A DNA stretch of 32,807 nt, from positions 1 to 32,807 of the forward strand of contig JAJRVZ010000064.1 of NCBI GenBank assembly GCA_024277055.1, in the 5' to 3' direction. This DNA comes from Calditrichota bacterium. Lineage in GTDB: Bacteria > Calditrichota > Calditrichia > JAJRVZ01. Under the pieces are notes generated by a model. The model was given only the letters and a program-made list of their open reading frames with translations, was not told the DNA's origin and did not search any database. This document shows positions 712-19,124 of the stretch, one piece after another; position 1 is the stretch's first letter, and each line of letters starts with the position of its first letter. Position numbers and translations under genes: made by a program.

Positions 712-1305
712 TTATTTATTGTGACAAGTTAAACACAATTGGCTGCCGTTGTTGTTTTTTACAAGCAAATGTTTCGTATCAGCCTGACCATGCACATCAT
801 GACAGGAAATACACTCAACCCTGTGATCGCGCAATAAATCCTCATCAATAGAATTTCCCAATCCTGATTCGGTTGTAATGGGATTGGCCAGTTGTCCGTC
901 TTTTATAGTGAGACTGGCATCATACACAAAAGATATCGGGTGGTCATTACCGAGATCGTCCCCAAGAGCTTTGCGCACGTTTTTTTCATTGCTCCCCTGA
1001 ATCAGGACGCTTTCAAGCGCCACGGTTCCATCATGGCAGCTTAAACACAGTTTTGATATACCGCTTGGTTCACCAACAAAAGCATCCATTGTTGCTGTTT
1101 TATAAACCCGAAAGCTTTCCCCTCTATCCGGAAAGATATCCGTTCTGACCTCTGTGTACTGTCCACTTTTAAAATGACAGATTACACAATTCTCATTTCC
1201 TGCGTTCCATTGTTGCGAGTCAAATCGGTGGGGTGCTTTGAGTAAAGTTTGTCCATAAACTGCACTCATCAAAGCGAGTACAAAAAGGGCTGAAATCCGT
1301 TTCAT
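712..1305 (-). CDS. Tetraheme c-type cytochrome, divergent paralog
   Basis: This is a secreted 197-residue protein with a Sec signal peptide (cleavage near the AVYGQ at residues 15-19) and four CXXCH heme sites at residues 40-44, 87-91, 165-169 and 191-195. It belongs to the same doubled-CXXCH family as the products of 8094-8714, 7358-8014 and 1535-2197: it shares the SKLCLSCHDGTVAL block, the DHPIS segment, the SGLG..I..DLL segment and the LCLTCH C-terminus. It is the most divergent copy. The first heme site is not followed by the PH and LWNH residues found in its sisters, so one distal heme ligand is apparently missing or replaced. It is the last gene of the locus. It most likely carries electrons outside the inner membrane; whether it is a filament subunit, a cap or a soluble carrier cannot be told from sequence. 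Confidence 0.88.
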   Translation of the reverse strand: MKRISALFVLALMSAVYGQTLLKAPHRFDSQQWNAGNENCVICHFKSGQYTEVRTDIFPDRGESFRVYKTATMDAFVGEPSGISKLCLSCHDGTVALESVLIQGSNEKNVRKALGDDLGNDHPISFVYDASLTIKDGQLANPITTESGLGNSIDEDLLRDHRVECISCHDVHGQADTKHLLVKNNNGSQLCLTCHNK

Positions 1306-1534
1306 TCCTTTCCTCTTACTTTGGCTAACTTGTTAAAAAGATAACAATATATTGCCTAAACATCAAGCAATAATATTGCACAAAAACTTACATTTTCACC
1401 TTTTTTATAAATTGTTTTTGTCCTTTTCTCTATTCCTGATAATCGTCGGTTTTTACTGCTTTTTTAATCAATGAACACAGTTGGTAAATTTTTATTTTTT
1501 TACCATATGCCCCCTTCGTCCCGGCTATAAATTC

Positions 1535-2197
1535 CTATTTTTTATGACAGGTAAAACAGAGGGCGCTGTTTGTGTTATCTACCCGAAGGGACAATGTACG
1601 GGTGGTTCCTCCATGAACAAAATGGCAGCCAAGACACCCATCCGTATTTCGTGACACATGAACATCATGACATGTTGAACACTCGACTTTTCCATCCTGT
1701 AATAAATCCTGCGCAATGGTTCCCCCCAACCCGGACGGCGTTGTTGCCGGATCATACAACTCGCCGTCTGCAGTAGCCAGGGCTGAATTGTAGGTTATCG
1801 AAATCGGATGATCGTCTTTTAATTCCGTCCCGATAAGCCCGACGCTGATATACAAGACTCCACCGGTATTACCACTGTGGTTCTCCAGGGCCACGGTTCC
1901 ATCATGGCAAGACAGACACAATTTCGAATGCCCGCCGGGCTGACCGGGGATCGATTCCATGGTTGAACTCTGATAAACCTGAAACACTGAAGTGGTAAGC
2001 TGATGATTCCATAGGGGAGAATTCGGTACATCCACACTGGCATTGTGCGGAGTGTGGCAGGGTAAACAGATTTCATTGTTTGCCCAGGCTGATCCGCTGA
2101 AATCGTGATGGCTTTGCGTAATATCAGCCAGCGCGACGGTACATAATGATACAAGTAAAAATATCACTAAAAGTTTAATTATAGTTTTTACAGACAT
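1535..2197 (-). CDS. Pentaheme c-type cytochrome of the tetraheme family
   Basis: The 220-residue product has a Sec signal peptide (hydrophobic residues 5-22, cleavage near VALA-D) and five CXXCH motifs at residues 44-48, 94-98, 173-177, 188-192 and 214-218. Four coincide with the sites of its tetraheme sisters; the fourth, CLGCH, is extra and lies in a short insertion after the CHDVH motif. The conserved CHTPH, PLWNH, SKLCLSCHDG and DDHPIS segments are all present. It lies 100 bases downstream of the 14-site cytochrome and 229 bases upstream of the divergent paralog, on the same strand, and is probably co-transcribed with them. Its role is electron transfer in the periplasm or outside the cell; the extra heme may extend the chain at a junction, which is an inference. 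Confidence 0.9.
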   Translation of the reverse strand: MSVKTIIKLLVIFLLVSLCTVALADITQSHHDFSGSAWANNEICLPCHTPHNASVDVPNSPLWNHQLTTSVFQVYQSSTMESIPGQPGGHSKLCLSCHDGTVALENHSGNTGGVLYISVGLIGTELKDDHPISITYNSALATADGELYDPATTPSGLGGTIAQDLLQDGKVECSTCHDVHVSRNTDGCLGCHFVHGGTTRTLSLRVDNTNSALCFTCHKK

Positions 2198-2297
2198 GAT
2201 CCGTCTCCTAAACTATATTTATTGTTAAAATTTTATCATAGTAATAATCGACCGTTTTTACTCTACTTAAACCTCAAATTAACAAATACTTCATTTA

Positions 2298-3608
2298 CTA
2301 CCTGGTCCTTGAGTAAGTCTTTTCTTCATTACACGCAGGAAGACACTTCCCCCCGCTTTCTGTCGCTTCATATTTTATCGGCATTTTCCAGCGACCGAAT
2401 CTTGCTTTTTCAGCTATCAGAAAATCCTGATCGGATGCATGTACATTATGACAATTAATACAGCTTCTGGATTTATCCCGCATTACATGCAGATAGTGTA
2501 AATTTAAAAGACCATTTCTGAATTCAGTTTCCGTCGAAGTATTCTTTTTCTCAATTAAATTACTATCATGGCAACCGAAACACAAGGCAAAATTTTCACT
2601 TTTCCCGGTTGTATAATTTCCTTCGGGAAAGGTAAGCGTCAATATCTTGCTGTTTTGTGATCCATGAGGCAAATGACAAGTTGAACATCCCTCTTCCAGG
2701 GGGGCGTGTAAGGTTTTCTTATTAATATCGATTAACTCCGGCCGCTTTCGCGTTGGTGCCAGACTTCTCTTATTCGCGCTTGAATGGCAATTCAAACATA
2801 CTTTTTGCTCTTCGGATTTTAATAAACTGTAGTTTTCACTGATGTGAGGTGAATGACAATTTAAACAGGTGCCTTTTTGACCTAGAGCCGGATGTGGAAC
2901 TTTCGATTGTTCAGCCGTTTGTTGGATTTCGTCATGACATTCGTAACACAAATTTGGTGGATTCATTATCGTTAGCTTAGCCCTTGGTGAATAATGAGGG
3001 ACATGACAATTCAGACAGTCTTCTTCAAATGGTGCGTGAATCGTTTCCGTTGATTCCGTGGCCTGTAAATCATCATGACATTGTAAACATAATTCCGGTG
3101 ATTCGGCTTTTAAAAGAGCACTATTATCGGATTCATGAGGATCATGGCAATTCATGCACTGTTCGTCTTTCACCGGAGCATGGCCAAAACGGCTGTTTTC
3201 TTCAATCAATTCATGGCAGCTGAGACATATAATATGTTTACCTTCCTTTAACAGAAAATACTCCAGATTCGAACCGTGCGGTGAATGGCAGGTTGTGCAA
3301 TCACCCTCTTCAACAGGGGGGTGTATATTTTGTTTTGTACCTTTTTCATCATGGCAATTATAACATAATGTCGGTACTTCGTCACTTATCGTATATTCCT
3401 GGCCCGGATTCTCCGGGTGCTTTGTTTCCTCCGAGTTAAGTTCGTGACAATTGGTGCAGTCCTCCTCAAACGGGGGATGCAGTTCGGAAAGATTAAAAAG
3501 TGATCCATGACATGCCGCCCCCCCACAGCTCTCTTCCTGAGCTATCAACTCCTTCCCTGCAGGAAGCAATACAAGTATACTCGATAAAATCAACAACGGT
3601 ATTTTCAA
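2298..3608 (-). CDS. Multiheme cytochrome with 13 CXXCH, one CX4CH and a degenerate C-terminal heme site
   Basis: This 436-residue secreted cytochrome starts with a signal peptide (residues 1-23) and then carries a chain of paired CXXCH motifs of the doubled-CXXCH type, with CxxCHxPH and H.P...E..C..CH spacing repeated throughout. There are 13 CXXCH sites plus a CGGAACH (CX4CH) at residues 28-34, so up to 14 hemes. Near the C-terminus the sequence CLPACN at 422-427 sits where the 12-heme neighbour has a CX3CH, so that site seems to have lost its histidine. Its start overlaps the stop of the outer-membrane barrel gene by 4 bases, which implies translational coupling. By analogy with porin-cytochrome conduits it could be the cytochrome held in, or just beside, the barrel. 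Whether it is periplasmic or surface-exposed is not visible in the sequence. Confidence 0.9.
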   Translation of the reverse strand: MKIPLLILSSILVLLPAGKELIAQEESCGGAACHGSLFNLSELHPPFEEDCTNCHELNSEETKHPENPGQEYTISDEVPTLCYNCHDEKGTKQNIHPPVEEGDCTTCHSPHGSNLEYFLLKEGKHIICLSCHELIEENSRFGHAPVKDEQCMNCHDPHESDNSALLKAESPELCLQCHDDLQATESTETIHAPFEEDCLNCHVPHYSPRAKLTIMNPPNLCYECHDEIQQTAEQSKVPHPALGQKGTCLNCHSPHISENYSLLKSEEQKVCLNCHSSANKRSLAPTRKRPELIDINKKTLHAPLEEGCSTCHLPHGSQNSKILTLTFPEGNYTTGKSENFALCFGCHDSNLIEKKNTSTETEFRNGLLNLHYLHVMRDKSRSCINCHNVHASDQDFLIAEKARFGRWKMPIKYEATESGGKCLPACNEEKTYSRTR

Positions 3609-5608
3609 AACTTACGCTCCAGTCGTAAATACCCGCTACTGTAATTCAACTGTTCTTCAAAAAAATCTCTTTTGAAAGTCTCAAAGCCTACGGATATTTT
3701 CAATTCCCGGTAAAAGGTGCTGAACTCCCCGCGAAAAGTAAGAAGATCCAGATCGATGGTTCTTCCACTTTGAAACCGGTATGACCCATCAAATTTTACA
3801 TGTGTTCTGTATGCCAGATTATAAATCAACCTGGCGGAAATATCTCTGAAGGTCTGTTCGTCATTATCATCTACCAGAATATACTGACGATAATTTCCGG
3901 TTACAGATGCGAGTAAATCCGTAAGCAGGTTACCGGCAATGGTTACATAGTATTGCTCGGATTTATAAGGAATAATGTTCGAGCGGAAATTGTCGTTTTC
4001 ATATCCGGCCTGAATCAGTTTGTGCCTTACATTCAAACCAAAAACGTTTTGATTGAACTTTTTCAGAATCAGTGCTTCTGAATTCGAAAAATCATCGAAC
4101 GATGATTCGTTATACCGAAAATAGAATTCCAGCAAATTTCTGAATAAACTTAATGAAGCACTGTAGGTATTATTGTTCGATGTGAATTCGTAAGACCCCT
4201 GTTGTACCGCTGTATAATTTACCAGAACGGTGGCACCGGCTGGTATCTGGCCTCCCGGCAGTCGTTGGATTTCAAGGAAATTTCCACGTTCGATGAGCAC
4301 GAAATCTATGTTTTCCTGGTAGATAATCGTTTGTGTTTCATCTGTAACCGTTACGCTTCCCGCAATGACAAAGGGGAATTTCAGCAATTCGGTTCCGCTG
4401 TCTGTTAATACATGCGTTTCATTAACCAGCTGAATTGTATTCTCACCGGCATTTCGCGTTTCTGTTCTTTGACGTGAACTGTATTTTAATCCCAATCGTC
4501 CGAATGGAATTTTCTTTTTATAATCAAAAGAATATCCATAGCCTTTATAATTTTCTTTGTATTCAGTTTGATTAAAATCGTTGTATTCATAATAGATATC
4601 ACTGGACAAACTTTCGAACAACTGATGGCCGAGGTTTGCGATAATACTTTGATTCTTCACATCCAATTTATCTTGTTCAAATTTAGAAAACTGATAATTC
4701 AGACGGCTTTTAAAATTCCAGGGTAACTCGTATGAGACCGATTCATTCGCCTGAATTCTTTTAAATGGTATGGTTCCGTTTTCAATCTTGTAATTGATAA
4801 ATGAAATATAATTTCCCTTTGTTTTGCCGAAGCGTATTGTGTTGCTTAGTTCAATATTCGCAATTTTATTTTCAACTGTTGTGTCAAACAAATAGTCCCT
4901 TGAAAAATCGTCGTACGATACTTCGAGACGATGGGTATCAAATTCGGAAAAGGATTTTTGAAATTCCAGGCCGTAAAAATTGTCCCTGCTTCTGTATTTC
5001 CGCCCTGTCTGTAATTCTTCCTGATCCCATTTTTGATTGTTATACATTAATCGAAACGGAAGAATATCGTTGCGAAATGCAAAATTTACACCAAAACCCG
5101 TCCGGTACATTTCTACATTAGTAGTAAACTCCCGATTGGTAAAACTGTGATTAAAACTTCCGAACAAACTGAAGTTGATCGGCTTACCGGAGAAGAAAGC
5201 CACCCTGCTGTTTATTTTTTCCGCAGTGTTTATCTCGGATCTGTCCGGTATAACCAGATAGCGGTCCCGCTGCGTAGCGGGATTATACTCGCCACCCAAT
5301 TCGATACTCACCAGGTTGGGATGAAACATGTAACTGCGAGTGTTCAATTCAAGTTTTCCCAGGAAGAGCGAGCTTTCCAGTTCATCCTGCAGACCACCTT
5401 TTAATTGGGTATCCTGTTTTCTGTAATTTCCTTCTAATGAAAAACTGCCGTTTATTCTCTGCAATGAAAATAATCTTAAGGGAACATCACGCTGGGCATA
5501 TAACGTTCCGGATAAGATGGAAACAGCCATAATGACCGTCATCATTAATTTAAAAGTATCTGAATTCCTGTATTTACCGTTTAATCGACTTCTTCTCATA
5601 TTCTTCAT
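3605..5608 (-). CDS. Outer-membrane beta-barrel (porin-like) protein of the cytochrome locus
   Basis: The 667-residue product has a long positively charged N-terminus and a signal sequence (hydrophobic residues about 21-36, cleavage near TLYAQ). The rest is rich in alternating hydrophobic and aromatic strands separated by polar turns, and it ends in ERKF, the terminal aromatic residue typical of barrels inserted by the BAM machinery. Around residues 400-460 there is a soluble-looking insertion with a GSVTVTDE...DFVLIE...G.IPAGATVLVNY pattern seen in various surface proteins. There is no CXXCH. It is embedded without gaps between a 5-heme lipoprotein and a 14-site cytochrome, the context expected for the porin of a porin-cytochrome conduit. 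I do not see clear sequence identity to MtrB or OmbB, so the role rests on fold features and context. Confidence 0.8.
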   Translation of the reverse strand: MKNMRRSRLNGKYRNSDTFKLMMTVIMAVSILSGTLYAQRDVPLRLFSLQRINGSFSLEGNYRKQDTQLKGGLQDELESSLFLGKLELNTRSYMFHPNLVSIELGGEYNPATQRDRYLVIPDRSEINTAEKINSRVAFFSGKPINFSLFGSFNHSFTNREFTTNVEMYRTGFGVNFAFRNDILPFRLMYNNQKWDQEELQTGRKYRSRDNFYGLEFQKSFSEFDTHRLEVSYDDFSRDYLFDTTVENKIANIELSNTIRFGKTKGNYISFINYKIENGTIPFKRIQANESVSYELPWNFKSRLNYQFSKFEQDKLDVKNQSIIANLGHQLFESLSSDIYYEYNDFNQTEYKENYKGYGYSFDYKKKIPFGRLGLKYSSRQRTETRNAGENTIQLVNETHVLTDSGTELLKFPFVIAGSVTVTDETQTIIYQENIDFVLIERGNFLEIQRLPGGQIPAGATVLVNYTAVQQGSYEFTSNNNTYSASLSLFRNLLEFYFRYNESSFDDFSNSEALILKKFNQNVFGLNVRHKLIQAGYENDNFRSNIIPYKSEQYYVTIAGNLLTDLLASVTGNYRQYILVDDNDEQTFRDISARLIYNLAYRTHVKFDGSYRFQSGRTIDLDLLTFRGEFSTFYRELKISVGFETFKRDFFEEQLNYSSGYLRLERKF

Positions 5609-6184
5609 TTAAAAGAAAAAATATTGATCATCCCCGCCATGAGGATTATGACATTCTATACATGTAGCATCATCAATTCCTTCATGCGCTTCGTTTTTGA
5701 AAACATCTTTTTGCTCATGACAATACAGGCAAAGATCCTGGCCCGTACGTTCCAGCAATTTTTTTTCACTGGCCATATGTGGATTATGACAACCGGTACA
5801 ATTCCCCGATACTACCGGGCCGTGCAAATAGGTATAGTTTTCGCTGAAGTCGTCATGGCAGTTAAAACAAAGCGCCGGCGGTTGTTCCAGCAATCTGTTG
5901 CCCTCCTCCAGATTATGGCAATCCGTACAGGCTCTCTCCTGGAAGGGCGGGTGAAAAACAAATTCACTTTCCTTCTTTCCCCGCAGCGACCGCAATTCAT
6001 TTTTATTTGATGCCAGTTTAGTGGAATCCTGCTTTACTTCTTTTTTTGCATTCGGGTCCGGTACACCATCAAAAAAGGTACTGAGGATATCATAAGTGGT
6101 CTGCCGGTTACAGCTCACCAGAATTCCCGAAAAAATTATTGTAAATATCAGTGGCCGAATCAAATTTTTGGTTTTCAGTCTCAA
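5609..6184 (-). CDS. Pentaheme cytochrome lipoprotein
   Basis: This 191-residue protein has a lipoprotein signal with lipobox LVSC, lipidated Cys at residue 25, then a low-complexity charged linker and a C-terminal domain with five CXXCH motifs (CTDCH, CFNCH, CTGCH, CLYCH, CIECH). The motifs occur as doubled-CXXCH repeats with the CHNPH and H.P......C..CH spacing, so each heme can find a histidine partner. The stop codon abuts the ATG of the barrel gene with no gap, and the NHL lipoprotein gene lies only 7 bases upstream. A small lipid-anchored cytochrome next to a barrel suggests an electron relay at the periplasmic face of the outer membrane. Which membrane the lipid anchor sits in is not decided by the sequence. 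Confidence 0.88.
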   Translation of the reverse strand: MRLKTKNLIRPLIFTIIFSGILVSCNRQTTYDILSTFFDGVPDPNAKKEVKQDSTKLASNKNELRSLRGKKESEFVFHPPFQERACTDCHNLEEGNRLLEQPPALCFNCHDDFSENYTYLHGPVVSGNCTGCHNPHMASEKKLLERTGQDLCLYCHEQKDVFKNEAHEGIDDATCIECHNPHGGDDQYFFF

Positions 6185-6191
6185 AGTAAAA

Positions 6192-7271
6192 TCACTGTAT
6201 AGTTATTTTTGGTTCAACAAACCCATACACACTTATTTTATCCGGTCCATACTGATTCGTAACAAAAATCAGATACTTTAGATTAAAGCTGCTATGGACA
6301 TATTTTTGAAAATATTTCAGGTTATTGTAATCGACCATCACTTTCGCCGGGAGCCACATGTCTCCCGGTTGACTGTAACTCCCCCCGAAAAACATCATTA
6401 ATTGTCCCTCTGAATTAAACATCTGTACATTCTCAAACCCCGAATCAACTACATAAAGAATATTATTCTTGTCGACGGCAATACCTTTGGGACGAACAAA
6501 TTGTCCCAATCCCCTTCCGAAGCTGCCAATGGATTTAATGTATTCACCTTTTTTGTTAAATACTTTTATTTTGAAAGCTCCGAAATCGCTGACATATATC
6601 CGGTTTGAACTGACGGTTAAATTAATTGGCTGATTTAAAAACTGCGGATCATCCGTTTCGGCATCCGGAAAAGAAAACAAGTGGCGAAAACCGTTTTTTG
6701 TATAGACATGAATTTTATGCTGACGCATATCGCAAAACCAGATCGTATCATTTTTTACAACTACATCCGTCGGTTTGGATTCCATCGCATCTCCGAATGC
6801 GGCAACATATTTCAAGTTCTGATTGAAGACGATTATCTGTTTTCTATTGGCATCTGCCACGTATAACAAACCCTGCTCATCTACGGAACAATTGATGGGT
6901 TTTTTTATCAGTCCGAGTCCGCTCGGTTTAAAATAGTCGAAAGTTTTCTGATTAAGATCCAGAATTTCCAAACCGCCTATTATCGAGTCACATATATAAA
7001 TTCTGCCCTTATAAATCGCAATACCATACGGCTTTACGATGGGATCACCCTGCTTTTCGCCCAATATATATTTCATCAGGCCGGTACGTTGACCGGTTAT
7101 ATCTATACTTGAACTGAAGCTGGTCAGATATTGAATACGGGTAGTATCCGGGGGAGCAGGAAAAATCCTCAATTCGCTTTCACTGATAAGGCGTGTACCA
7201 CTTGTGGAACAGGATATAAAAAAAACAGCGATTAGAAAAACCGCTAGTTTTGTTAAATTCCATTTTTTCAT
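6192..7271 (-). CDS. NHL-repeat six-bladed beta-propeller lipoprotein
   Basis: The 359-residue product begins with a lipoprotein signal (lipobox FISC, Cys 21) and then the PAPPDTTRIQYL segment typical of the N-terminus of NHL lipoproteins that occur next to multiheme cytochrome genes. The body consists of about six NHL blades with recurring patterns such as KPYGIAI...IYICDS, KPINCSVDEQGLLYVAD and RPKGIAVDKNNILYVVDSG. There are no heme motifs or catalytic residues. NHL propellers usually serve as binding platforms, so it may hold or assemble cytochromes at the envelope. It is separated from the upstream tetraheme gene by a hairpin at 7293-7321 and is followed after 7 bases by the 5-heme lipoprotein. 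A second NHL protein without a lipobox is encoded at 13484-14503. Confidence 0.88.
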   Translation of the reverse strand: MKKWNLTKLAVFLIAVFFISCSTSGTRLISESELRIFPAPPDTTRIQYLTSFSSSIDITGQRTGLMKYILGEKQGDPIVKPYGIAIYKGRIYICDSIIGGLEILDLNQKTFDYFKPSGLGLIKKPINCSVDEQGLLYVADANRKQIIVFNQNLKYVAAFGDAMESKPTDVVVKNDTIWFCDMRQHKIHVYTKNGFRHLFSFPDAETDDPQFLNQPINLTVSSNRIYVSDFGAFKIKVFNKKGEYIKSIGSFGRGLGQFVRPKGIAVDKNNILYVVDSGFENVQMFNSEGQLMMFFGGSYSQPGDMWLPAKVMVDYNNLKYFQKYVHSSFNLKYLIFVTNQYGPDKISVYGFVEPKITIQ

Positions 7272-7292
7272 TTTCCATCCTCATCTTTATAA

Positions 7293-7321
7293 TTTAGGGG
7301 TGATAAACAATCACCCCTAAA
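7293..7321 (-). terminator. Hairpin after tetraheme gene (terminator or attenuator)
   Basis: An 11-bp perfect stem (TTTAGGGGTGA / TCACCCCTAAA, loop of 7) lies between the stop at 7358 and the next gene start at 7271. The 3' side on the minus strand is AT-rich but has only a weak U-run, so partial termination or mRNA 3'-end protection is more likely than a full stop. It would lower expression of the NHL, lipoprotein and barrel genes relative to the tetraheme gene. Confidence 0.65.
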
Positions 7322-7357
7322 ATTACATAATTTTCACGGTTACAACAAGATTTCCTC

Positions 7358-8014
7358 TTATTTCAGATGACAGGTTAAACACAAACCGCTGTTCACGTTT
7401 GAGATAAGCAGCAATTTTGTTCCGGGCACGGATTGTGTATTATGTACATCATGGCAGGATGCACATTGAAGTTTCTGTCCGAAAAGTAAATCCGTATCAA
7501 TTGTGTTGCCCAGCCCGCTGTTCGTGGTTGAAGGATCGGCCAATTCACCATCGGAAGTCGCAAGGGCGGAATTATAAGTAATCGATATCGGATGATCGTC
7601 AGTAAGATCCGTTCCCATGACATCCCTGTGTCCTGAAGACCAGAACACGGTTCCGGTCTGTCCTCCCCAGCTGTCCAGTGCCACCGTGCCATCATGACAA
7701 CTCAAACAAAGTTTGGATACACCGTCCGGCTGTCCTGTGGCAGCATCCATGGTTGTGCTGGTATAGGGTGTGAAATTTGCCGTTGTAACCTCATGGTTCC
7801 ACAAAGGGGCATCAACAACACTTGCATCTGCATTGTGCGGTGTATGACATGGAATACAAATCTCATCCGTTCCACCGTGCATGAAGGTCCAGTTCCACCC
7901 GGAGCTGGAAAAATCATGTTGAGAACCTACAATCGTTTGTGCCTGCATTGTTAATGCCGAAGCATAAAAAAGAACCAAAAGCCCCCGCAAAAAGATTCTT
8001 ATTGTTGCTTGCAT
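7358..8014 (-). CDS. Tetraheme c-type cytochrome, candidate extracellular filament subunit
   Basis: This is a 218-residue secreted protein with a signal peptide ending near MQAQ (residues 23-26) and four CXXCH sites at residues 53-57, 103-107, 184-188 and 212-216. Non-heme histidines that recur in the family (QHDF, CHTPH, DDHP, CHDVH) give four candidates for distal ligands, so bis-His coordination of all four hemes is plausible. It is very similar to the product of 8094-8714 directly upstream, including the DAPLWNHEVTT block, which suggests tandem duplication. Small secreted tetraheme cytochromes next to NHL propellers and multiheme partners resemble loci of extracellular cytochrome filaments (OmcE-like and archaeal types); that resemblance is from gene context and motif layout, not from an alignment. 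A hairpin follows the gene. Confidence 0.92.
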   Translation of the reverse strand: MQATIRIFLRGLLVLFYASALTMQAQTIVGSQHDFSSSGWNWTFMHGGTDEICIPCHTPHNADASVVDAPLWNHEVTTANFTPYTSTTMDAATGQPDGVSKLCLSCHDGTVALDSWGGQTGTVFWSSGHRDVMGTDLTDDHPISITYNSALATSDGELADPSTTNSGLGNTIDTDLLFGQKLQCASCHDVHNTQSVPGTKLLLISNVNSGLCLTCHLK

Positions 8015-8051
8015 GATCTATGTTCATTATTTCACTAATCATTTAATTAAA

Positions 8052-8076
8052 AAGGGCGGAAGGCAATTCCGCCCTT
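8052..8076 (-). terminator. Rho-independent terminator after first tetraheme gene
   Basis: A perfect 9-bp GC-rich stem (AAGGGCGGA / TCCGCCCTT, loop of 7) lies 17 bases after the stop of the 8094-8714 gene. On the minus strand it is followed by TTTTTAATT, the layout of an intrinsic terminator. Read-through would feed the next tetraheme gene, so the first cytochrome is likely the most abundant product. Confidence 0.8.
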
Positions 8077-8093
8077 AAGATCTGATTGTTTTT

Positions 8094-8714
8094 TTACTTG
8101 CTGTGGCAGGTCAGGCAGAGTGCGCTGCCGCTATTGTTGATAACCAGCAATTTCGTACCGTTAACCGCCTGGGTGTTATGTACATCGTGGCAGGAAGAAC
8201 ACTGCATTTTACCGCTGATCAGAAGATCCTGATCGATCGTGCCACCAAGGCCACTATTCTGCGTAGTCGGATTATAAATCTCACCGTCTGCGGATGCCAG
8301 TGCAGCATCATAGGTGAAAGATACCGGATGGTCATTGCTCAGATCGGTACCGAGATTTTTGCCACCACCGATAAACTGTGAACCGTTTGTGGTTCCACCG
8401 AAGTTGTCGAGAGCAACCGTACCATCATGGCAGCTCAAACACAATTTGGATGCACCGTCGGGCTGGCCGATCGTGCCGTCAAATGTGCCGGAACTGTAAA
8501 CCGTGAAATTTGTAGTTGTTACTTCATGGTTCCACAGCGGAGCATCCGTTACGGAAGTGTTTGTATTATGCGGTGCATGGCAGACAACACAGATTTCGCC
8601 GGTGTTGTTCCAGTTTTTGTTAGAAAAATCATGAGCCGAACCCACAATCGTCCCTGCAAATGCTGTAGCTGACAAAACAGCCACAACAACCAAAAGACTT
8701 GCTAACTTTTTCAT
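8094..8714 (-). CDS. Tetraheme c-type cytochrome, candidate main filament subunit
   Basis: The 206-residue product has a classic Sec signal (cleavage near residue 20, TAFA-G) and four CXXCH sites at residues 42-46, 92-96, 172-176 and 200-204. Non-heme histidines at 28, 49, 129 and 179 are conserved in the sisters and in the N-terminal part of the 12-heme protein, so they are the best candidates for distal heme ligands; His63 is not shared by the 12-heme protein. A strong ribosome-binding site (GGAGG, 7 bases before the ATG) and a sigma54-like promoter at 8774-8789 precede it, and a strong terminator follows. First position, strong signals and its own terminator suggest a highly made structural cytochrome. 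Polymerisation is inferred from analogy to tetraheme nanowire proteins and cannot be seen directly. Confidence 0.93.
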   Translation of the reverse strand: MKKLASLLVVVAVLSATAFAGTIVGSAHDFSNKNWNNTGEICVVCHAPHNTNTSVTDAPLWNHEVTTTNFTVYSSGTFDGTIGQPDGASKLCLSCHDGTVALDNFGGTTNGSQFIGGGKNLGTDLSNDHPVSFTYDAALASADGEIYNPTTQNSGLGGTIDQDLLISGKMQCSSCHDVHNTQAVNGTKLLVINNSGSALCLTCHSK

Positions 8715-8773
8715 AAATCCTCCAGTAAGTTTATGTTAATGTTTCCCACGTCTTGTCATGTGCCTTATTAATA

Positions 8774-8789
8774 TACAAACAACGTGCCG
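8774..8789 (-). promoter_or_regulatory. Sigma54-type promoter for the tetraheme/porin unit
   Basis: On the minus strand the sequence CGGCACG-TTGT-TTGTA matches the sigma54 consensus TGGCACG-N4-TTGC(A/T) with two mismatches, one of them at the usually conserved C of the -12 element. The GG to GT spacing is the required 10 bases. Transcription would start near 8762, about 50 bases before the ATG at 8714. The adjacent NtrC-type activator supports it. Confidence 0.6.
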
Positions 8790-8906
8790 GAAATTACAAG
8801 TTTCACAATTTATTATTTCTTCAACCTAATTACCTTTAAAAACAACTACTTATCAACGATCTCCGTTTTAACATTAATAAATTTTAATTTTCATGACCCA
8901 TGCGCC

Positions 8907-8944
8907 GGGGCATTTCACCCAAATTTTTTGGGGCATTTCACCCA
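8907..8944. repeat. Two 15-bp direct repeats, candidate activator-binding site
   Basis: The 15-bp word GGGGCATTTCACCCA occurs exactly at 8907-8921 and 8930-8944, spaced 23 bp start to start (about two helix turns). The second copy overlaps the stop codon of the regulator gene. The pair lies about 145-180 bases upstream of the predicted start of the tetraheme unit, the usual place for a sigma54 enhancer. It is either an upstream activator site or a short duplication. Confidence 0.45.
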
Positions 8945-10326
8945 TCCTGTTGCGAAATCTTGTATTTTTTGATCTTGTAACGCAATGTATCCCGTGTTAC
9001 CCCCATCATTTCCGCCGCTCTCGTTTGGTTATATCCTGATTTTTGAAGAGTCATTTCAATGATCGATTTTTCAATTTCATAAATAGAAAATCCCTCTTCC
9101 GGAATTTCCAGCCATTTTTCCACGTCCGTAATTTTTGTCGGCGGTTTCACACCACTGATTTCAGAAGGCAGATTATCCGTGTCAATCCATTCGTCCGTCT
9201 CAAGTATAATCGCCCTCTCGATCACATTCCTCAGTTCTCTCACGTTTCCCGGCCATGAATAATTCATCAATACCTTTAAAGCATTGTCCGTTACCCCCTT
9301 AATGCTTTTTCTGAACTGCTTGTTAAAGCTTTGAATAAAATATTCTACCAGAAGAGGAATATCTTCCCGCCTTTCACGGATGGGAGGCATGGTTAACTGG
9401 AAAACTTTCAGACGATAATATAGATCATTCCTGAATTTTTTCTGTTCTATTGCAGCATTGAGATCCTGATTGGTTGCTGCAATAATCCTGATATTTACCC
9501 GGATGTCTTCTGTCCCCCCCAACCGACGGAAGACACGGCTTTCAAGAACATTTAAGAGTTTGACCTGCAGAGCTACATTTACTTCACCAATCTCATCCAG
9601 ATACACCGTTCCGCCGTCGGCTACCTCGAACAGACCCTTTTTTTGCGTTTTTGCATCGGTAAATGCACCCCTTTCATGACCGAACAGTTCACTCTCCAAA
9701 AGGGTTTCAGGCAGGGATGCACAATTAATGGTTACAAAGCTTTTATCTTTTCTGTTGCTGTTATTGTGGATTATTCGAGCCAGCAGATCCTTTCCCGTAC
9801 CACTCTCCCCCAGCAATAAAACCGTAGTTGCTTCCGATTGCGAAATCTTTTTTGCCAGATCGATGATTCTATTCATCGATTTTGAAGTTCCAATGATGTG
9901 ATTAAAATTTAGTTTGTCCTGTTGCTCTCGGCGTAATATTTGCAACTCGTTATCGAGATTAATTTTTTTCTCGATGTTCTCAAGAATCAATTCAATTTCA
10001 TCGAAATTAAAGGGTTTGTTTACATATTCGAAGGCACCCATTTTCATGGCCATTACAGCCGTTTCTATCGTACCGTAGGCTGTCATAAAAATTATATAAC
10101 AATCCTCTTTGAGCGCTTTCATTTCCTTTATTAATTCCAGGCCTTGTTTACCAGGTAATTTGTTATCCAGAAAAACCACATCCGGATATTTTTCCTTAAA
10201 GCGCTCCAGTCCCTCTTCTCCGCTTTCGGCCGTTTCGACTGAATAGCCTTCTTTTTTTAATTGCTGTTTGAAAGACCAGCATATCAGTTTTTCGTCATCA
10301 ATAACTAGAATATTCAGGCGAGACAT
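8938..10326 (-). CDS. NtrC-family sigma54-dependent response regulator
   Basis: The 462-residue protein has the full three-domain layout. The receiver domain (1-120) has acidic pair D10/D11, phosphoacceptor D54, T82 and K104. The AAA+ domain (about 142-375) has Walker A GESGTGKD at 173-180, the sigma54-contact loop as GAFTDA at 220-225 instead of the commoner GAFTGA, Walker B GGTVYLDE at 238-245, and the WPGNVREL block. The C-terminal Fis-type helix-turn-helix ends in TRAAEMMGVTRDTLRYKIKKY. It would activate sigma54 RNA polymerase when phosphorylated. Its start lies one base after the end of the open frame of the upstream kinase, so the pair is a two-component system. Likely targets are the promoters at 8774-8789 and 14569-14584, the latter implying autoregulation. 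Confidence 0.95.
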   Translation of the reverse strand: MSRLNILVIDDEKLICWSFKQQLKKEGYSVETAESGEEGLERFKEKYPDVVFLDNKLPGKQGLELIKEMKALKEDCYIIFMTAYGTIETAVMAMKMGAFEYVNKPFNFDEIELILENIEKKINLDNELQILRREQQDKLNFNHIIGTSKSMNRIIDLAKKISQSEATTVLLLGESGTGKDLLARIIHNNSNRKDKSFVTINCASLPETLLESELFGHERGAFTDAKTQKKGLFEVADGGTVYLDEIGEVNVALQVKLLNVLESRVFRRLGGTEDIRVNIRIIAATNQDLNAAIEQKKFRNDLYYRLKVFQLTMPPIRERREDIPLLVEYFIQSFNKQFRKSIKGVTDNALKVLMNYSWPGNVRELRNVIERAIILETDEWIDTDNLPSEISGVKPPTKITDVEKWLEIPEEGFSIYEIEKSIIEMTLQKSGYNQTRAAEMMGVTRDTLRYKIKKYKISQQDG

Positions 10327-10327
10327 A

Positions 10328-10579
10328 TTAAACGATTTCTTCTATTAAAGTCATATCTTTTTTACTGGTCTGATGTACCGGCAAACTTATTATAATAGTC
10401 GTTCCGATATTTTGCTTGCTTTCTATTTTTATTCCGCCTCCATGGCGCTCGATAATGTCTTTTGAAATTGAGAGCCCCAGCCCGGTTCCTTTGTTGCGGG
10501 TGGTAAAAAACGGTTTAAATACCCGTGACCGGTCTTCTTCCGGAATACCCTTGCCATCATCTTCTATCCTGATCAGGAT
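10328..10579 (-). pseudogene. C-terminal ATP-binding remnant of the histidine kinase, beyond an in-frame stop
   Basis: The kinase frame continues past the TAA at 10580-10582 for 83 more codons with no shift and ends in TAA at 10328-10330, one base before the regulator ATG. These codons encode the missing half of the HATPase domain: G1 box IEDDGKGIP, F box VFKPFFTTR and G2 box KGTGLGLSISK, then a typical C-terminus. No ATG with a ribosome-binding site precedes it in frame, so it is unlikely to be made separately. Either one substitution (for example AAA, GAA or CAA to TAA) has split a 496-residue kinase, or the base is a sequence error. Confidence 0.8.
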
Positions 10580-11818
10580 TTATTCCCGCTGACTATTAAA
10601 TTCCGTTGTAAAAGTTACAACACCATGATCAACAATAGACTGGATTGCATTTTGCCCGAGATTAATGATTACATCCTCAATTTGCTTGTGATCGAACTCA
10701 AAAACAGGAATACCGCTGGCTAGTTTCAGATGGAATGCTATCTTTTTTTCAGTAACCTGATTTTCAAGAAAAAAAACGGCTGACCGGATCAGCTGGTTAA
10801 TATTACCCGGCTCACTTTGCAGATCAATCGGCTTTGAAAACTGCAATAGATCATTTATCGTTTTATTTACCCGGTGTACCTGGCGATTAATTTCTTCCAA
10901 AACGGGCTTTTTGTCTTCATCATAGGCATCGCTGACAATTATTTCAATAGCATTTGCGATTCCGGTAAGCGGATTTTTTATCTCATGAGCCAGGCCGGCA
11001 GCCATTTCACCGACGGTCGCCAGCTTCTGAGCATTCAGCAATTCTTTCTGGTGATATTCTGCAAGTTTGTTCTGCATGAGCTGCAATTGATCCAGCATAC
11101 GGTTAAAACTTTCCCCCAGACTGCCCAATTCCTTATAATCGGCAATACTTACTCTGGCGCTTAATTCTCCCTCTTCAACTTTTTGAATCGTTTTTATAAA
11201 GTTTTGCAATGAGCGACGCACTGATTTGTAGTGCATGAAAATAGCGCCAACGATTATTATCAGTAACATTAAAACTGTAAAAACAATTCCAAACTGTCTG
11301 ATTAAAGCTATATTTTCTTTCAGGTTGCGCATGGAATAATCAAGCACGACATAGCCGAGATTTACGGAACCATCGCCATGACAGGAAAAACATTTTCCGC
11401 TGTTTTGGATCTGCATAATAGCTCTCAGGTATCCGTCATCCGCCCGGTCGGATCTATAGTTTACAGTTATATCTTCAGAAACCGCAGAAACGTCAATAAA
11501 ACCCGTCTGACCGGATAGTGTCGTATCCGAAGTTGTGGACATCACGATTTTTCCGGATGCATCCAGTATATAGGTTGCATTGATATTCTCATCTTTCTGT
11601 AATCTGTTCAAAATTGGATACAGTATCTTTCCGCCGTTGTCGGACAAAAAGAAGAGCATATCATTTCGCAGAATGCCAAGTAATCGCCGGACACTTTCTT
11701 CAGAATTCCGTTGAACTCTTTCCGCCACGGAATTCTGATAAAAATTAAAGGCCACATAGCTGGCAATTATTATCATCAGCGAAAGCGATGTCAGTATTTT
11801 AAATCTGAATGTAAACAT
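10580..11818 (-). CDS. Membrane histidine kinase with a c-type heme site in its sensor domain (truncated)
   Basis: The 412 residues read: transmembrane helix 8-27, an extracytoplasmic sensor region (about 28-172) with a CFSCH motif at 143-147 followed by GYVVLDYS, a second transmembrane helix about 176-196, a HAMP domain (about 197-250), a HisKA domain with phosphoacceptor His278 in AGLAHEIKNPL, and the N box of the ATPase domain (IEDVIINLGQNAIQSI). A TAA at 10580-10582 then ends translation before the G1 and G2 boxes. A covalently bound heme in the periplasmic part suggests redox or ligand sensing. It starts 8 bases after the 12-heme cytochrome gene and precedes its regulator. As read it cannot bind ATP properly; the in-frame continuation at 10328-10579 would complete it. 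Confidence 0.9.
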   Translation of the reverse strand: MFTFRFKILTSLSLMIIIASYVAFNFYQNSVAERVQRNSEESVRRLLGILRNDMLFFLSDNGGKILYPILNRLQKDENINATYILDASGKIVMSTTSDTTLSGQTGFIDVSAVSEDITVNYRSDRADDGYLRAIMQIQNSGKCFSCHGDGSVNLGYVVLDYSMRNLKENIALIRQFGIVFTVLMLLIIIVGAIFMHYKSVRRSLQNFIKTIQKVEEGELSARVSIADYKELGSLGESFNRMLDQLQLMQNKLAEYHQKELLNAQKLATVGEMAAGLAHEIKNPLTGIANAIEIIVSDAYDEDKKPVLEEINRQVHRVNKTINDLLQFSKPIDLQSEPGNINQLIRSAVFFLENQVTEKKIAFHLKLASGIPVFEFDHKQIEDVIINLGQNAIQSIVDHGVVTFTTEFNSQRE

Positions 11819-11826
11819 TTTCAGGT

Positions 11827-13494
11827 TTAATACGTCTTCGGACCATGTCTTTTACCATGACATTCCAGATAACATTCACCCTTATAATTACCGGTATCGC
11901 GAAATTCAAGCCGGCCCGAATTCGGGTCTGGATTAACAACGGCCGTATTAAAATTGATAAGAGCCGTATGGCTGCCCTGATCGGAACTGATACCGTGTGG
12001 ATCATGACAATGGTTGCAGGGAAACTTCTCCTTAACAATGTGTTTTTTATGAACATCTTTACCAAACTTGTCGGTAGAATTAATGATCGAGTTCCGGTCG
12101 TGGCACTGATAACATAGCTCATAAGCAAAATAGGATTCGCTCGTATTCTCCTGTGTATTGTAATTAAATTTTAGAATTCGCGGATATATTGAGCCGTGGG
12201 GACCCTTAGGGGAGCCGGGACCGTCACTGGCATGGCAATCCGAACAGTAGATTGTGCTCGATTCCGTCAGGGGTGAAATCAGACTGCGAACATTCGTGTT
12301 CTTTCCAGGACCTTCAACCGGATGATAGGAAGTGTTCCCCAGATCAAACTCCAGACGTACATTGTTTTGCTCCCATTGCCTTGGTGTCGGGCTGGAGGGT
12401 TTATTGGGACTATCCGCATGACACCGGTAGCATATTTCATATTCATATTGGGCATTATTGGTTGGATTGCCGTTAGTGTCTATACCGGGAGCTCCCTGTA
12501 ATGCACCGCTGACATTGGGTGACTGGCTGCTTCCTCCGTTTGCTGCATGAGGATTATGGCAATCGACGCACTCAACGTGCAGCGCCTGTACCGGATCCTG
12601 CTCTTTGTTATCATGTATTTGCTGATAATTATACACGTTATGGGTATAGGTTTTTGACAGCATGGCTTCAATATTTTTACTTGCCACACTTCCGTTGTGA
12701 CAATGCAGACAGTTGTTTTCTTCATTCAGCCAATTCAACAACCGTTCTTTTCCCTGGGCATTGTGCGGATCATGACAGTTCTCACAGGCATTTTGCGAAA
12801 CCGTTGTGTAATCGGTATGAAACCAGGGATCCGTTCCGTTTCCGTTCCAGGTTTTATTCGAGGTCTGATGTGAAGCGGTAGACCAGAAATTTTTGTCGTG
12901 ACAATAAAGACACAAAGCGGAGTTTTCATTTGTTGCCAGCAGGAAATTGCCATACACATTGCTGTGCGGATCATGGCACGATGTACATTCCATTTTATCG
13001 CCTTGTAAATGTACCGGTCCGCTTAAAAGAGAAGGATCGACAAGTTCACCGTCACTGGCTGCCAATGAAGAATTGTAGGTAAAAGAAATCGGGTGATCGT
13101 CATCCAGGTTCGTTGTCAAATCACTCCCGCGTCCGGCAAGAGTTCCCGAACCGGAAAAACTGATTGGAACCGGTCTGCTCAAAACATTTCCCAGTGCAAT
13201 GGTACCATCATGACAGGAAAGACACAAAAGTGATGAACCCGAAGGTTGACCGGGTGCCGCTTCTGTGGAAGAACTGTTATACAACGTATAGTTTGAAACC
13301 GGATCCGTACGGTTCCACAATGCCCCCCTCGCGCTGGCGGCATGCGGCGTATGGCAAAATATACAGATTTCCGTTTCGCTCAGGGCCTTTACAGAACCCG
13401 GCCCGGAAACAGACAAATTATGAACGGTTCCAACAATTGACTGACTGAAACACAGTCCAGGCAAAACAATGAACAAAATCCATTTAATTTTCAT
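11827..13494 (-). CDS. 12-heme cytochrome with N-terminal tetraheme module
   Basis: The 555-residue secreted protein (signal peptide residues 1-18) has 11 CXXCH motifs plus a C-terminal CYLECH (CX3CH) in the context GECYLECHGKRHGPKTY. Residues about 19-205 repeat the layout of the small tetraheme cytochromes, with the CHTPH, LWN, CLSCHDGT, DDHPISFTY and CHDPH blocks in the same order. The remaining 350 residues hold eight further heme sites. This makes it a natural adapter: a filament-subunit-like domain fused to a longer heme chain. It overlaps the upstream NHL gene by 11 bases and is followed 8 bases later by the heme-sensor kinase. Electron transfer outside the inner membrane is near certain; the adapter or cap role is an inference. 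Confidence 0.92.
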   Translation of the reverse strand: MKIKWILFIVLPGLCFSQSIVGTVHNLSVSGPGSVKALSETEICIFCHTPHAASARGALWNRTDPVSNYTLYNSSSTEAAPGQPSGSSLLCLSCHDGTIALGNVLSRPVPISFSGSGTLAGRGSDLTTNLDDDHPISFTYNSSLAASDGELVDPSLLSGPVHLQGDKMECTSCHDPHSNVYGNFLLATNENSALCLYCHDKNFWSTASHQTSNKTWNGNGTDPWFHTDYTTVSQNACENCHDPHNAQGKERLLNWLNEENNCLHCHNGSVASKNIEAMLSKTYTHNVYNYQQIHDNKEQDPVQALHVECVDCHNPHAANGGSSQSPNVSGALQGAPGIDTNGNPTNNAQYEYEICYRCHADSPNKPSSPTPRQWEQNNVRLEFDLGNTSYHPVEGPGKNTNVRSLISPLTESSTIYCSDCHASDGPGSPKGPHGSIYPRILKFNYNTQENTSESYFAYELCYQCHDRNSIINSTDKFGKDVHKKHIVKEKFPCNHCHDPHGISSDQGSHTALINFNTAVVNPDPNSGRLEFRDTGNYKGECYLECHGKRHGPKTY

Positions 13495-14503
13495 CGCTAA
13501 ATCCCTTTACAAATTTAAATTCCTGGATACGTGAGTTATATAAATCCGCTATGAAAATATGATCATTATCATCAATATAGATTCCTGCCGGGAGCCAAAA
13601 CTCCCCCATTTTTCTTCCCTGGCGTCCGATATGCATGAGTAACTGCCCCCTTCTGTCAAACACCTGTACCGTATTGAATATGGCATCCACGATATAGATT
13701 CGTCCCCTCGAGTCGGTTGCCACGCCCCGCGGGCGGGCAAAGTACCCGGCTGAGTCCCCGGCATCACCAAACTCCATCACGAAGTTTCCTTCAATGTCAA
13801 AGACCTGAATTCTAAAATTCATGGAATCTATTACATAAATCATGCCAGTTTTATCTACCCAGACAAACGTCGGATAATTAAACTGACCCGGCCCCGTTCC
13901 ACGTTGCCCCAGTGAGCGTAGCAGATTACCCTGCAGATCAAATTGTGACAACTGATGTTTTTTTGTTTCAACGACCCACAAGGTTTTGTTTTTATTGCAA
14001 AAAGCCAGGCCTGTGGGGCGGTTGAAATTGTGAGAAGCGGCAAATTCCTCAAATTGTTTATCTTCAGAATTGAACCGGTAGACCCGGTTGAGTTCTGAAT
14101 CCGAAATAAACATATTTTTATTATCCCCCAGACAAATCCCCACCGGCGCCTTCAAACGCATATCATTTTCCGGGTAATATTGGGTGATTTCACCCTCTTC
14201 AAAATCCAGACAGAACAAAGAGTGTCGCGCCTGATCCAAAACCCACTGGCGTCTTTCAGCGTCCACAACAAGGTTGAACGGATTCATTAAATTGATCTGT
14301 TTTTTGCCAAAAAGCAGGTCGGCAATCCGGTCTCCAAGACCCGGCTCAAATCCCGTATCAACCCTGTTATTATAAGCCCCGACCCATTCGATTATCCGGT
14401 TTTCTTTATCCGGCCAGTAAACCGAACTGGAATCATCCTGTGCATCGGCCTTTAACGAAAAAATAAAAATTACACCCAGAATCTGCAGATAAGTTTTTAA
14501 CAT
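13484..14503 (-). CDS. NHL-repeat six-bladed beta-propeller protein, exported
   Basis: This 339-residue protein has a Sec signal peptide (residues 1-21, cleavage near ADAQ) and no lipobox, so it should be soluble in the periplasm or outside. Six NHL blades can be traced by repeats such as APVGICLGDNKNMFISDS, RPTGLAFCNKNKTLWVVET, YPTFVWVDKTGMIYVIDS and RPRGVATDSRGRIYIVDA. It is the first gene of the regulatory cytochrome unit, with a sigma54-like promoter 65-80 bases upstream, and it overlaps the 12-heme cytochrome gene by 11 bases. It is the non-lipidated counterpart of the NHL lipoprotein at 6192-7271. A scaffold or chaperone function for cytochrome assembly is suggested by the repeated pairing but not proven by sequence. 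Confidence 0.88.
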   Translation of the reverse strand: MLKTYLQILGVIFIFSLKADAQDDSSSVYWPDKENRIIEWVGAYNNRVDTGFEPGLGDRIADLLFGKKQINLMNPFNLVVDAERRQWVLDQARHSLFCLDFEEGEITQYYPENDMRLKAPVGICLGDNKNMFISDSELNRVYRFNSEDKQFEEFAASHNFNRPTGLAFCNKNKTLWVVETKKHQLSQFDLQGNLLRSLGQRGTGPGQFNYPTFVWVDKTGMIYVIDSMNFRIQVFDIEGNFVMEFGDAGDSAGYFARPRGVATDSRGRIYIVDAIFNTVQVFDRRGQLLMHIGRQGRKMGEFWLPAGIYIDDNDHIFIADLYNSRIQEFKFVKGFSDEN

Positions 14504-16154: not shown

Positions 16155-17567
16155 CTAATTCATCGTCGTTTTTTCAAACATTAAATGTAAAAATCCATGA
16201 CCGGTGCCGGCAACCGGATCCGGATTTCCCTGAGTATCCTGTGGTGGTAAAATAATATGGGTTTCAATCATTTGCGTACTGTGATCGGTGGCATCGTTTG
16301 CCAGGTTGGTTATCAGCTTCAGGTCTGATGTTCGCGCACGGGAAGAAACCATGATGTGTACCAGCCTGTCAGCCGCAAGAACATTTCCGTTGCCGTCTTT
16401 CAGATCAACGATACCCCAAAGTGTAATGTATGACAACATTTTAGGCATCATGTTTGTCCCGACACCGGTATCGCCGTGCATTTCCTTATCATAACCGACG
16501 CCACCGAAAAAGGTATGATCTCCGGTACCTTCCGCTTTGTGAATGATATTTATTCCGTCAATCGAAAAAGCCGTTCCATCCGCCCGTTCGTAAAACAGGG
16601 TAAAATTATCTACGGCATCTTCGGAAGATTCGGAATCGCCGGCGGTTAAGTCGCTGGTCGTAAGCGTGAAACTTCCGCCACCCACTGCGACCCGATCAGA
16701 AAAAGGTGTGGGTGACATTTGCGGATTGACGGCTGCCGGTCCGGGTAAAATTTCGTAGGCCAGTTTCCAATCCCTGGCTTCGCCGGAAAGCGCAACCTGT
16801 TCGAACATCATGTGCAAAAAGCCATGGGCGGTTCCGGGTACCGGGTCAGCGTTGCCGGCCATATCTTGCGGCGGTAAAATGATATGTGTTTCCGCATTCC
16901 AGGTATTGTGATCTGAAGAATCATTTACTGCGGAGGGAATCATTTTCAAATTTGCATCTCTTGCTTTCGTTGCGACCATTATATGAATAACACGGTTGGC
17001 GGCGATTACCGAACCATCTGACGCATTTTTCAGATCTGCCAATCCCCATAGAGTAATATATGCCAGCATCTTCGGCATCAGGCCGATACCGATACCCGTA
17101 TCGCCATGCATCATTTTATTGCGACCGACACCTCCGAAGAATGTATGATCGCCGGTGCCGGCTGCCTTGTGAATAATATTGATCTTATCGATGAGGTATT
17201 CGGTTCCGTCACTGCCGGTAAACAATATGGTCACATCGGATATCGCATCCTGTGAAGAAGGCGAATCATCCTCGTCTGTATCCGAAACGGTAAATGAATA
17301 GGAACCCGTCGTGGTTTGAATATTATCGGAAAAGGGCGTGGGGTTCATGGCGGGATTCATTACTGCCGGTCCCGGTAAAACTTCATAAACGCTTCCCGGT
17401 GAACCGGATTGTGAAGCGGTGAATTCAGCAACACCTGCATAGTTTGCACTGGCGGTCCGTGTAGTTTGTGGTGTGTTAACCGGACCGGTGCTATCGTCAC
17501 TGCTTTCACATGCAGTAAATATGAAAACCGACGATACAAAAATAATACCCAACAAAAAATGTTTCAT
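16155..17567 (-). CDS. Lipoprotein with two copies of a histidine-rich ~196-residue domain, unknown function
   Basis: I do not recognise this family. The 470-residue protein has a lipobox (FTAC, Cys 20) and a Ser/Thr-rich linker, then two tandem copies of one unit, residues about 61-256 and 271-466 (period about 210). Each copy runs from YE(V/I)LPGPA through NIIHKA.GTGDHTFFGGVG, MHGDTG, MPKML.YITLWG, HIMV, ETHIILPPQD and GFLH.MFE. Eight histidines are kept at matching places (133/343, 141/351, 154/364, 195/404, 220/429, 228/437, 248/457, 252/461), which points to metal or ligand binding rather than simple structure. No cysteines occur in the domains. It is a single gene, convergent with dacB, 4 kb from the cytochrome locus. 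Envelope location is clear; metal binding is an inference. Confidence 0.85.
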   Translation of the reverse strand: MKHFLLGIIFVSSVFIFTACESSDDSTGPVNTPQTTRTASANYAGVAEFTASQSGSPGSVYEVLPGPAVMNPAMNPTPFSDNIQTTTGSYSFTVSDTDEDDSPSSQDAISDVTILFTGSDGTEYLIDKINIIHKAAGTGDHTFFGGVGRNKMMHGDTGIGIGLMPKMLAYITLWGLADLKNASDGSVIAANRVIHIMVATKARDANLKMIPSAVNDSSDHNTWNAETHIILPPQDMAGNADPVPGTAHGFLHMMFEQVALSGEARDWKLAYEILPGPAAVNPQMSPTPFSDRVAVGGGSFTLTTSDLTAGDSESSEDAVDNFTLFYERADGTAFSIDGINIIHKAEGTGDHTFFGGVGYDKEMHGDTGVGTNMMPKMLSYITLWGIVDLKDGNGNVLAADRLVHIMVSSRARTSDLKLITNLANDATDHSTQMIETHIILPPQDTQGNPDPVAGTGHGFLHLMFEKTTMN

Positions 17568-18731: not shown

Positions 18732-19124
18732 ATGAAGAGAAAAAATCTGACTTCGCTGGAACTTGAAATTATGAATGTTATCTGGCGGCTGGGTGGTTCG
18801 CCGACGGTGAGAGATGTCCTTCAATCTGCATACCCCGAAGGTGAAAAAGCATATACCACGGTGCAGACCGTAATGAATAATCTTGAAGCCAAAGGGTATC
18901 TGCGCAAGGAAAAAAAGGGTCTGGTTAATTTTTATAAACCAATAAAGCGACGCCGGGATGAATTACGCCGCGCAACTGCCGTCCTGATCGAAAAACTGTT
19001 CAGCGGCTCGGCAATCGAACTGGCCAGTTATCTGATCTCTTCCGGCGATCTCAGTAATCAGGATATCTCCGAATTAAAGGCGCTGATTGACCGGAAAACA
19101 AATGGCAGTAATACCAATGCTTGA
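18732..19124 (+). CDS. BlaI/MecI/CopY-family transcriptional repressor
   Basis: The 130-residue protein has the N-terminal winged-helix domain of the family (LTSLELEIMNVIWRLGG, PTVRDVLQSAY, YTTVQTVMNNLEAKGYL, wing with RKEKKGLVNFYKP) and a C-terminal helical dimerisation part with the site where the protease partner cleaves in classical members. It is normally released from its operator when its cognate membrane metalloprotease (BlaR1-like) senses a signal. The stop overlaps the start of such a gene at 19117, the classical blaI-blaR1 order, and a perfect dyad operator lies upstream. Here the partner is broken, so the repressor may be constitutive. The target may be this operon only; no beta-lactamase is adjacent, though a serine hydrolase is encoded at 22922. 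Confidence 0.92.
   Translation: MKRKNLTSLELEIMNVIWRLGGSPTVRDVLQSAYPEGEKAYTTVQTVMNNLEAKGYLRKEKKGLVNFYKPIKRRRDELRRATAVLIEKLFSGSAIELASYLISSGDLSNQDISELKALIDRKTNGSNTNA

Follow-up and report, generated by a model that had tools for sequence, protein, structure and literature searches.

The twelve genes lying between positions 712 and 14,503 of the window, by which we mean the whole 32,807-nt stretch of DNA analysed, probably encode a Uet-like outer-membrane conduit, predicted to feed an OmcE-type cytochrome filament. All twelve open frames (A to L, Table 1) are on the minus strand and are tightly packed, L and K overlapping by 11 bp and C and D by 4 bp. Read 5' to 3' along the genes, their order is L, K, J, I, H, G, F, E, D, C, B, A. 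Seven multihaem cytochromes, four of them OmcE-like, are accompanied by a large barrel, two NHL propellers, a kinase with one haem motif, and a sigma54 activator. The CXXCH motifs number four in A, G and H, five in B and E, and one in the kinase J, while C possesses 13 of them plus one CX4CH (14 sites) and K possesses 11 plus one CX3CH (12 sites). A preliminary description had listed a single 13.8-kb minus-strand block with 12-haem and 14-site cytochromes, a 5-haem lipoprotein, an outer-membrane barrel with a C-terminal Phe, two NHL propellers and a sigma54 activator. This inventory holds, all twelve frames lying where it had placed them and the motif counts being in agreement, as are the domain calls for the propellers, the kinase, the regulator and the paired-CXXCH cytochromes. 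Its four small tetrahaem-family cytochromes are indeed four OmcE-like proteins, but one of these, B, is a pentahaem member of the family.

Table 1. Features of the block, with positions counted from the first base of the window.
Feature	Positions	Strand	Description	Basis
A	712..1305	-	OmcE-type tetrahaem paralogue, candidate terminal subunit	first motif without the His of CxxCHxxH
B	1535..2197	-	OmcE-type cytochrome with a fifth CXXCH	~65% identical relative in locus L017
C	2298..3608	-	14-site cytochrome, MtrA/DmsE-like	6r2q_A match
D	3605..5608	-	predicted outer-membrane beta-barrel, ~29-30 strands, small inserted domain near residues 402-458	AlphaFold
E	5609..6184	-	5-haem lipoprotein (putative)	PF09699; lipobox
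F	6192..7271	-	NHL propeller lipoprotein (putative)	PF01436, E 5e-16
G	7358..8014	-	second OmcE-type tetrahaem cytochrome, H paralogue	62% identical to H
H	8094..8714	-	OmcE-type tetrahaem cytochrome, likely main filament subunit (UetA-like)	full-length phmmer matches; four CXXCH; four distal His
sigma54-type -24/-12 element (predicted)	8774..8789	-	CGGCACGTTGTTTGTA	75 bases upstream of H
I	8938..10326	-	NtrC-type sigma54-activating response regulator	PF00072, PF00158, PF02954
J	10328..11818	-	sensor kinase, CFSCH haem motif in sensor part, interrupted frame	HAMP + HisKA
K	11827..13494	-	12-haem cytochrome: N-terminal OmcE domain and eight-haem part with MtrC/MtrF-like domain (UetJ-like)	
L	13484..14503	-	secreted NHL propeller, overlapping the start of K	PF01436, E 2.5e-27

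A search of the whole window for Rfam families and tRNAs returned none. Just past the block and a DacB-type peptidase lies a 470-residue lipoprotein (16155-17567, minus strand) made of two similar halves, spondin-like by eye and with no Pfam match at 1e-5. On the plus strand, a BlaI-type repressor (18732-19124) directly precedes a BlaR1-like peptidase with a TonB C-terminus (19228-20335), apparently split over two frames, possibly by a frameshift or as a second interrupted gene, and a 683-residue frame (27164-29215) has no Pfam match at 1e-5.

phmmer analysis of H reports full-length hits with the OmcE filament (7TFS, E 6e-24) and with 9YUQ (E 3e-27), the only two solved structures that it matches. 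The 9YUQ entry, whose protein goes by the name putative multihaem cytochrome c, comprises 16 copies of one chain, and no mention of it was found in the literature searched. With a profile built from 17 relatives of H, the scores rise for both entries. In the alignment, the KHDLS, CHTPH, NDHPV and CHKVH segments of OmcE correspond to AHDFS, CHAPH, NDHPV and CHDVH in H, which possesses four distal-histidine candidates for its four haems, all invariant or near-invariant among its relatives. These four histidines are kept in H, G and B, and in 78 of the 92 tetrahaem frames of all loci. Beyond a weak and partial match with OmcS (E 0.002), H shows no homology to OmcS, OmcZ or the archaeal nanowire subunits, and the likeness to archaeal nanowires proposed in the preliminary description gives way to Uet as the nearest published system. 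Judged by their sequences, H, G, B and A are OmcE-family cytochromes. H is likely the main filament subunit, a predicted role, as homology to OmcE is not proof of polymerisation; its full-length alignment with OmcE and 9YUQ lends good support to the earlier proposal of a filament-type conduit with tetrahaem subunits.

According to PMC9473688 and PMC12203936, one haem of OmcE is ligated by a histidine of the neighbouring subunit. The paralogue A belongs to a set of eight small cytochromes that have lost the histidine of CxxCHxxH in their first motif, and nothing else. Seven of the eight, from Calditrichota and Cyclobacteriaceae, form one clade in a 111-row tree (support 95/98), the eighth (locus L031) being a separate loss. 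Every member of the clade is encoded at the C end of its cluster, in six cases right beside C. In OmcS, the border-crossing ligand is the histidine that matches the one lost in A-type proteins (His16 in CHTMH). If we assume that this holds for OmcE as well, bonding on one side of an A-type subunit would be impossible, and we infer that such subunits would end the filament chain.

The fusion protein K combines two kinds of domain. Its residues 15-201 match 7TFS (E 1e-25) and its residues 231-362 match the MtrC/MtrF-like family PF22113 above the cut-off; on these matches, K joins an OmcE domain to an eight-haem portion that includes an MtrC-like domain. The OmcE domains of K type form a single clade among the OmcE-type proteins (111-row tree, support 100/100), with the four distal histidines invariant, and the series of 11 CX2CH and one CX3CH is found in 84 of 90 near-full-length K relatives. 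Since the invariant histidines of the C-terminal part outnumber the need of its eight haems, nothing points to an open catalytic haem in K. The AlphaFold model of K, built from 12 rows, is uninformative (pLDDT 32). No statement that UetJ starts with an OmcE domain was found in our survey, outside which the primary Uet and OmcE papers lie, and this may be known.

The AlphaFold model of D (pLDDT 85.5) is an all-beta barrel, its strands being counted by DSSP, and the C-terminal Phe of D is shared by 57 out of 70 relatives. The best Foldseek matches of the model are all outer-membrane barrels, generic and TonB-receptor-like (TM ~0.3). No match with MtrB was returned by Pfam, by PDB sequences or among the top 50 Foldseek structures, and Foldseek against a viral library gave nothing useful. 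A segment of ~90 residues of C (93-179) hits the MtrAB structure entry 6r2q_A (E 3e-16), and C scores 146 bits with the DmsE family, below the cut-off of 192. E and F look like lipoproteins. Among the relatives of E, 36 of 55 contain a lipobox-like sequence and 46 of 55 possess five haems, and a lipobox-like sequence is present in 45 of 66 relatives of F. Pfam calls NHL repeats in both F and L.

Receiver, sigma54-interaction and Fis-type HTH domains were all found in I. The haem-sensor kinase of the preliminary description stands as regards its single haem motif, but the open frame of J (10580-11818) ends at an in-frame TAA (10580-10582) straight past the N-box and ahead of the ATP-binding boxes. 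The ATPase part (EDDGKGIPEED...GTGLGLSISKDIIERHGG) resumes in the same frame down to 10328, and the relatives of J are uninterrupted kinases of ~480-540 residues. In a draft assembly such as this one, of 386 contigs, the stop could be either a mutation or an assembly error. Upstream of H, the sequence (T/C)GGCA(C/T)-N5-TTGT is common to seven of eight aligned regions, which read GG-N10-GT instead of GC at -12. The GG-N10-G(C/T) spacing of this predicted site fits sigma54, the T at -12 being unusual, and a strict scan in which GC was needed at -12 found no site upstream of the window's H. With a pattern that permits T for the usual C at -12 and was fitted partly on the same loci, a site is present at -55 to -92 of H in 8/8 Calditrichota loci with the regulator upstream, as compared with 6/55 H-type genes without an adjoining regulator and 39 sites overall in 1.46 Mb. 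The exact site is absent in four Bacteroidota loci with the regulator, and no such site lies upstream of H in L018, a copy of the cluster without regulators. The suggestion that the locus has its own two-component system gains support from this conserved site beside a sigma54 activator gene, but the kinase is interrupted in this assembly.

Relatives of K were found in at least 561 stretches, and some of the matches may be confined to its OmcE domain. The best 80 of these stretches, chosen by K alone and fetched with their surroundings, encode proteins 43-64% identical to K over nearly its whole length and represent about a dozen phyla, among them Calditrichota, Bacteroidota, Ignavibacteriota, Planctomycetota, Verrucomicrobiota, Nitrospirota, Pseudomonadota, Desulfobacterota and Myxococcota. 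Because the loci were picked for K alone, the neighbours of K are informative. L lies near K in 75 of the 80. Of these loci, 38 extend for 7 kb or more to both sides of K; here, L and D are each found nearby in 37, a tetrahaem cytochrome in 36, F in 35, E in 33 and C in 25; the tetrahaem protein, F, D and L occur together near K in 35. A search for the same gene order elsewhere, as the preliminary description had advised, recovers it from further genera and phyla, and the genes of the block are therefore not grouped by chance. Within Calditrichota, at least seven genomes show this order with the regulators included. K is present in 12 of 40 genomes of this phylum, scattered over families, which suggests transfer or repeated loss, many of these genomes being incomplete. 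In one Calditrichota genome, the cluster is present twice on the same contig, ~30 kb apart (L017 and L018), the second copy being devoid of kinase and regulator. Next to the core set, three gammaproteobacterial loci (L064, L068, L101) contain a further NHL gene and a second group of multihaem cytochromes, with 3 to 24 CXXCH.

The undecahaem electron transfer pathway (Uet) of Candidatus Tenderia electrophaga and Gallionella comprises an 11/12-motif cytochrome, an extracellular tetrahaem cytochrome, a beta-barrel and an NHL pair (PMC10734462). The block resembles it in that genes for a tetrahaem protein, a barrel and NHL propellers are clustered together, a match of parts lists rather than of sequences, and in K as the counterpart of UetJ, by motif count rather than by alignment with Tel_16545. 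It is set apart from Uet by the MtrA-like C with its 14 sites, by the 5-haem lipoprotein E, by the presence of several paralogues of OmcE type and by its haem kinase and sigma54 activator. The block has no frame with three CXXCH, as expected for the triple-haem cytochromes UetDEG, and none of its proteins shows a PPIase domain as in UetB; these parts may lie elsewhere in the genome. With the OmcE filament of Geobacter sulfurreducens, H shares full-length homology, four CXXCH and the same four distal histidines. Here, by contrast, there is a dedicated cluster with a barrel and the K fusion, and the filament is a predicted one. As in MtrCAB, an MtrA/DmsE-like C adjoins the barrel and K has an MtrC/MtrF-like domain, but D has more strands than MtrB, a 26-strand barrel, and does not match it, C has 14 sites instead of 10, and K starts with an OmcE domain. 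A locus of Geoalkalibacter ferrihydriticus likewise unites an OmcE homologue, an MtoA homologue and two NHL proteins, as compared by gene content rather than by sequence; the passage of PMC12016550 on this locus reports neither a K-like protein nor a barrel. Another candidate for the closest system, the OetABI conduit of syntrophic sulfate reducers, was rejected, its parts list lacking the OmcE/12-haem/NHL set, and PCC3 was set aside likewise.

In the proposed mechanism, electrons would pass between periplasmic carriers, the 14-site C together with the 5-haem E, and via the barrel D onto K, which at the outer surface would hand them to a filament of H grown on the OmcE domain of K. The NHL propellers L and F would probably scaffold or assemble K and H. 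In response to the haem-bearing kinase J (interrupted in this assembly), the regulator I would switch on H, and probably also the rest of the second transcription unit, from the sigma54-type promoter upstream of H. This reading is favoured by the homology of H and of the K N-terminus to OmcE with the distal histidines kept, the MtrC-like part of K, the match of C with the MtrAB entry, the barrel model, the recurrence of the core set, the Uet parts list and the site shared by all Calditrichota loci with the regulator. It is weakened by the missing MtrB match of D, the poor model of K, the absence of UetDEG and the PPIase from the block and the permissive, partly fitted sigma54 pattern; moreover, what cytochrome filaments do physiologically is a matter of dispute (abstract of PMC11077965). 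The same conduit and wire might instead run inward, taking up electrons from Fe(II), a cathode or a partner cell, which changes the direction and not the parts. To this we give somewhat less than even weight: uptake has been proposed for Uet, the nearest system with a name, whose carriers (Tenderiales, Gallionella) are cathode and Fe(II) oxidisers, and the products of two haem-copper oxidase genes in the genome could accept the electrons. However, the block contents do not fix the direction, porin-cytochrome conduits may run both ways, and one carrier in the class, if it is Caldithrix abyssi, would be a nitrate-respiring anaerobe.

It is unlikely, yet conceivable, that the barrel and the NHL proteins form a device for exporting or assembling the filament, in which case electrons would come to the wire some other way. 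The barrel and the two NHL proteins are conserved to the same degree as the wire protein, the MtrA-like C is near K in just 25 of the 38 well-flanked loci, and Foldseek of D finds transport barrels; in many loci, however, C, E or another multihaem protein adjoins the barrel, and a pore of 29-30 strands, larger than that of MtrB, could hold a cytochrome. Far less probable is a soluble or periplasmic redox enzyme system, such as a nitrite- or hydroxylamine-converting one, with no filament. Domains with paired CXXCH do occur in such systems and weak NrfB/NrfH-type matches were obtained, but all these family scores are far below their cut-offs, the ligand pattern is bis-His with one distal candidate for each haem of H, and the best solved relative is a filament. 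The enzyme reading was rejected on these sub-cut-off scores and this pattern, the preliminary description having named catalytic haems in periplasmic enzymes as what would speak against a filament.

If the conduit with its OmcE-type filament is the correct reading, K may serve as the built-in foot of the wire, with its OmcE subunit linked covalently to an MtrC-like portion seated on the barrel; a single polypeptide would then belong to both filament and conduit. A-type subunits, encoded beside the MtrA-like cytochrome, would end the chain at the other side, being unable to lend their histidine to a neighbour. We put this forward quite tentatively, and with more doubt than confidence, as a plan that OmcE-type wires of many phyla may have in common. 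To the question of how nanowires are anchored and fed at the outer membrane, this cluster brings a concrete and testable candidate junction. Uniting an OmcE-type wire protein, a barrel and a protein in which wire-subunit and MtrC-like parts are combined, the set would extend nanowire biology well beyond Geobacter, and it hints at how such wires may be anchored, ended and switched on.
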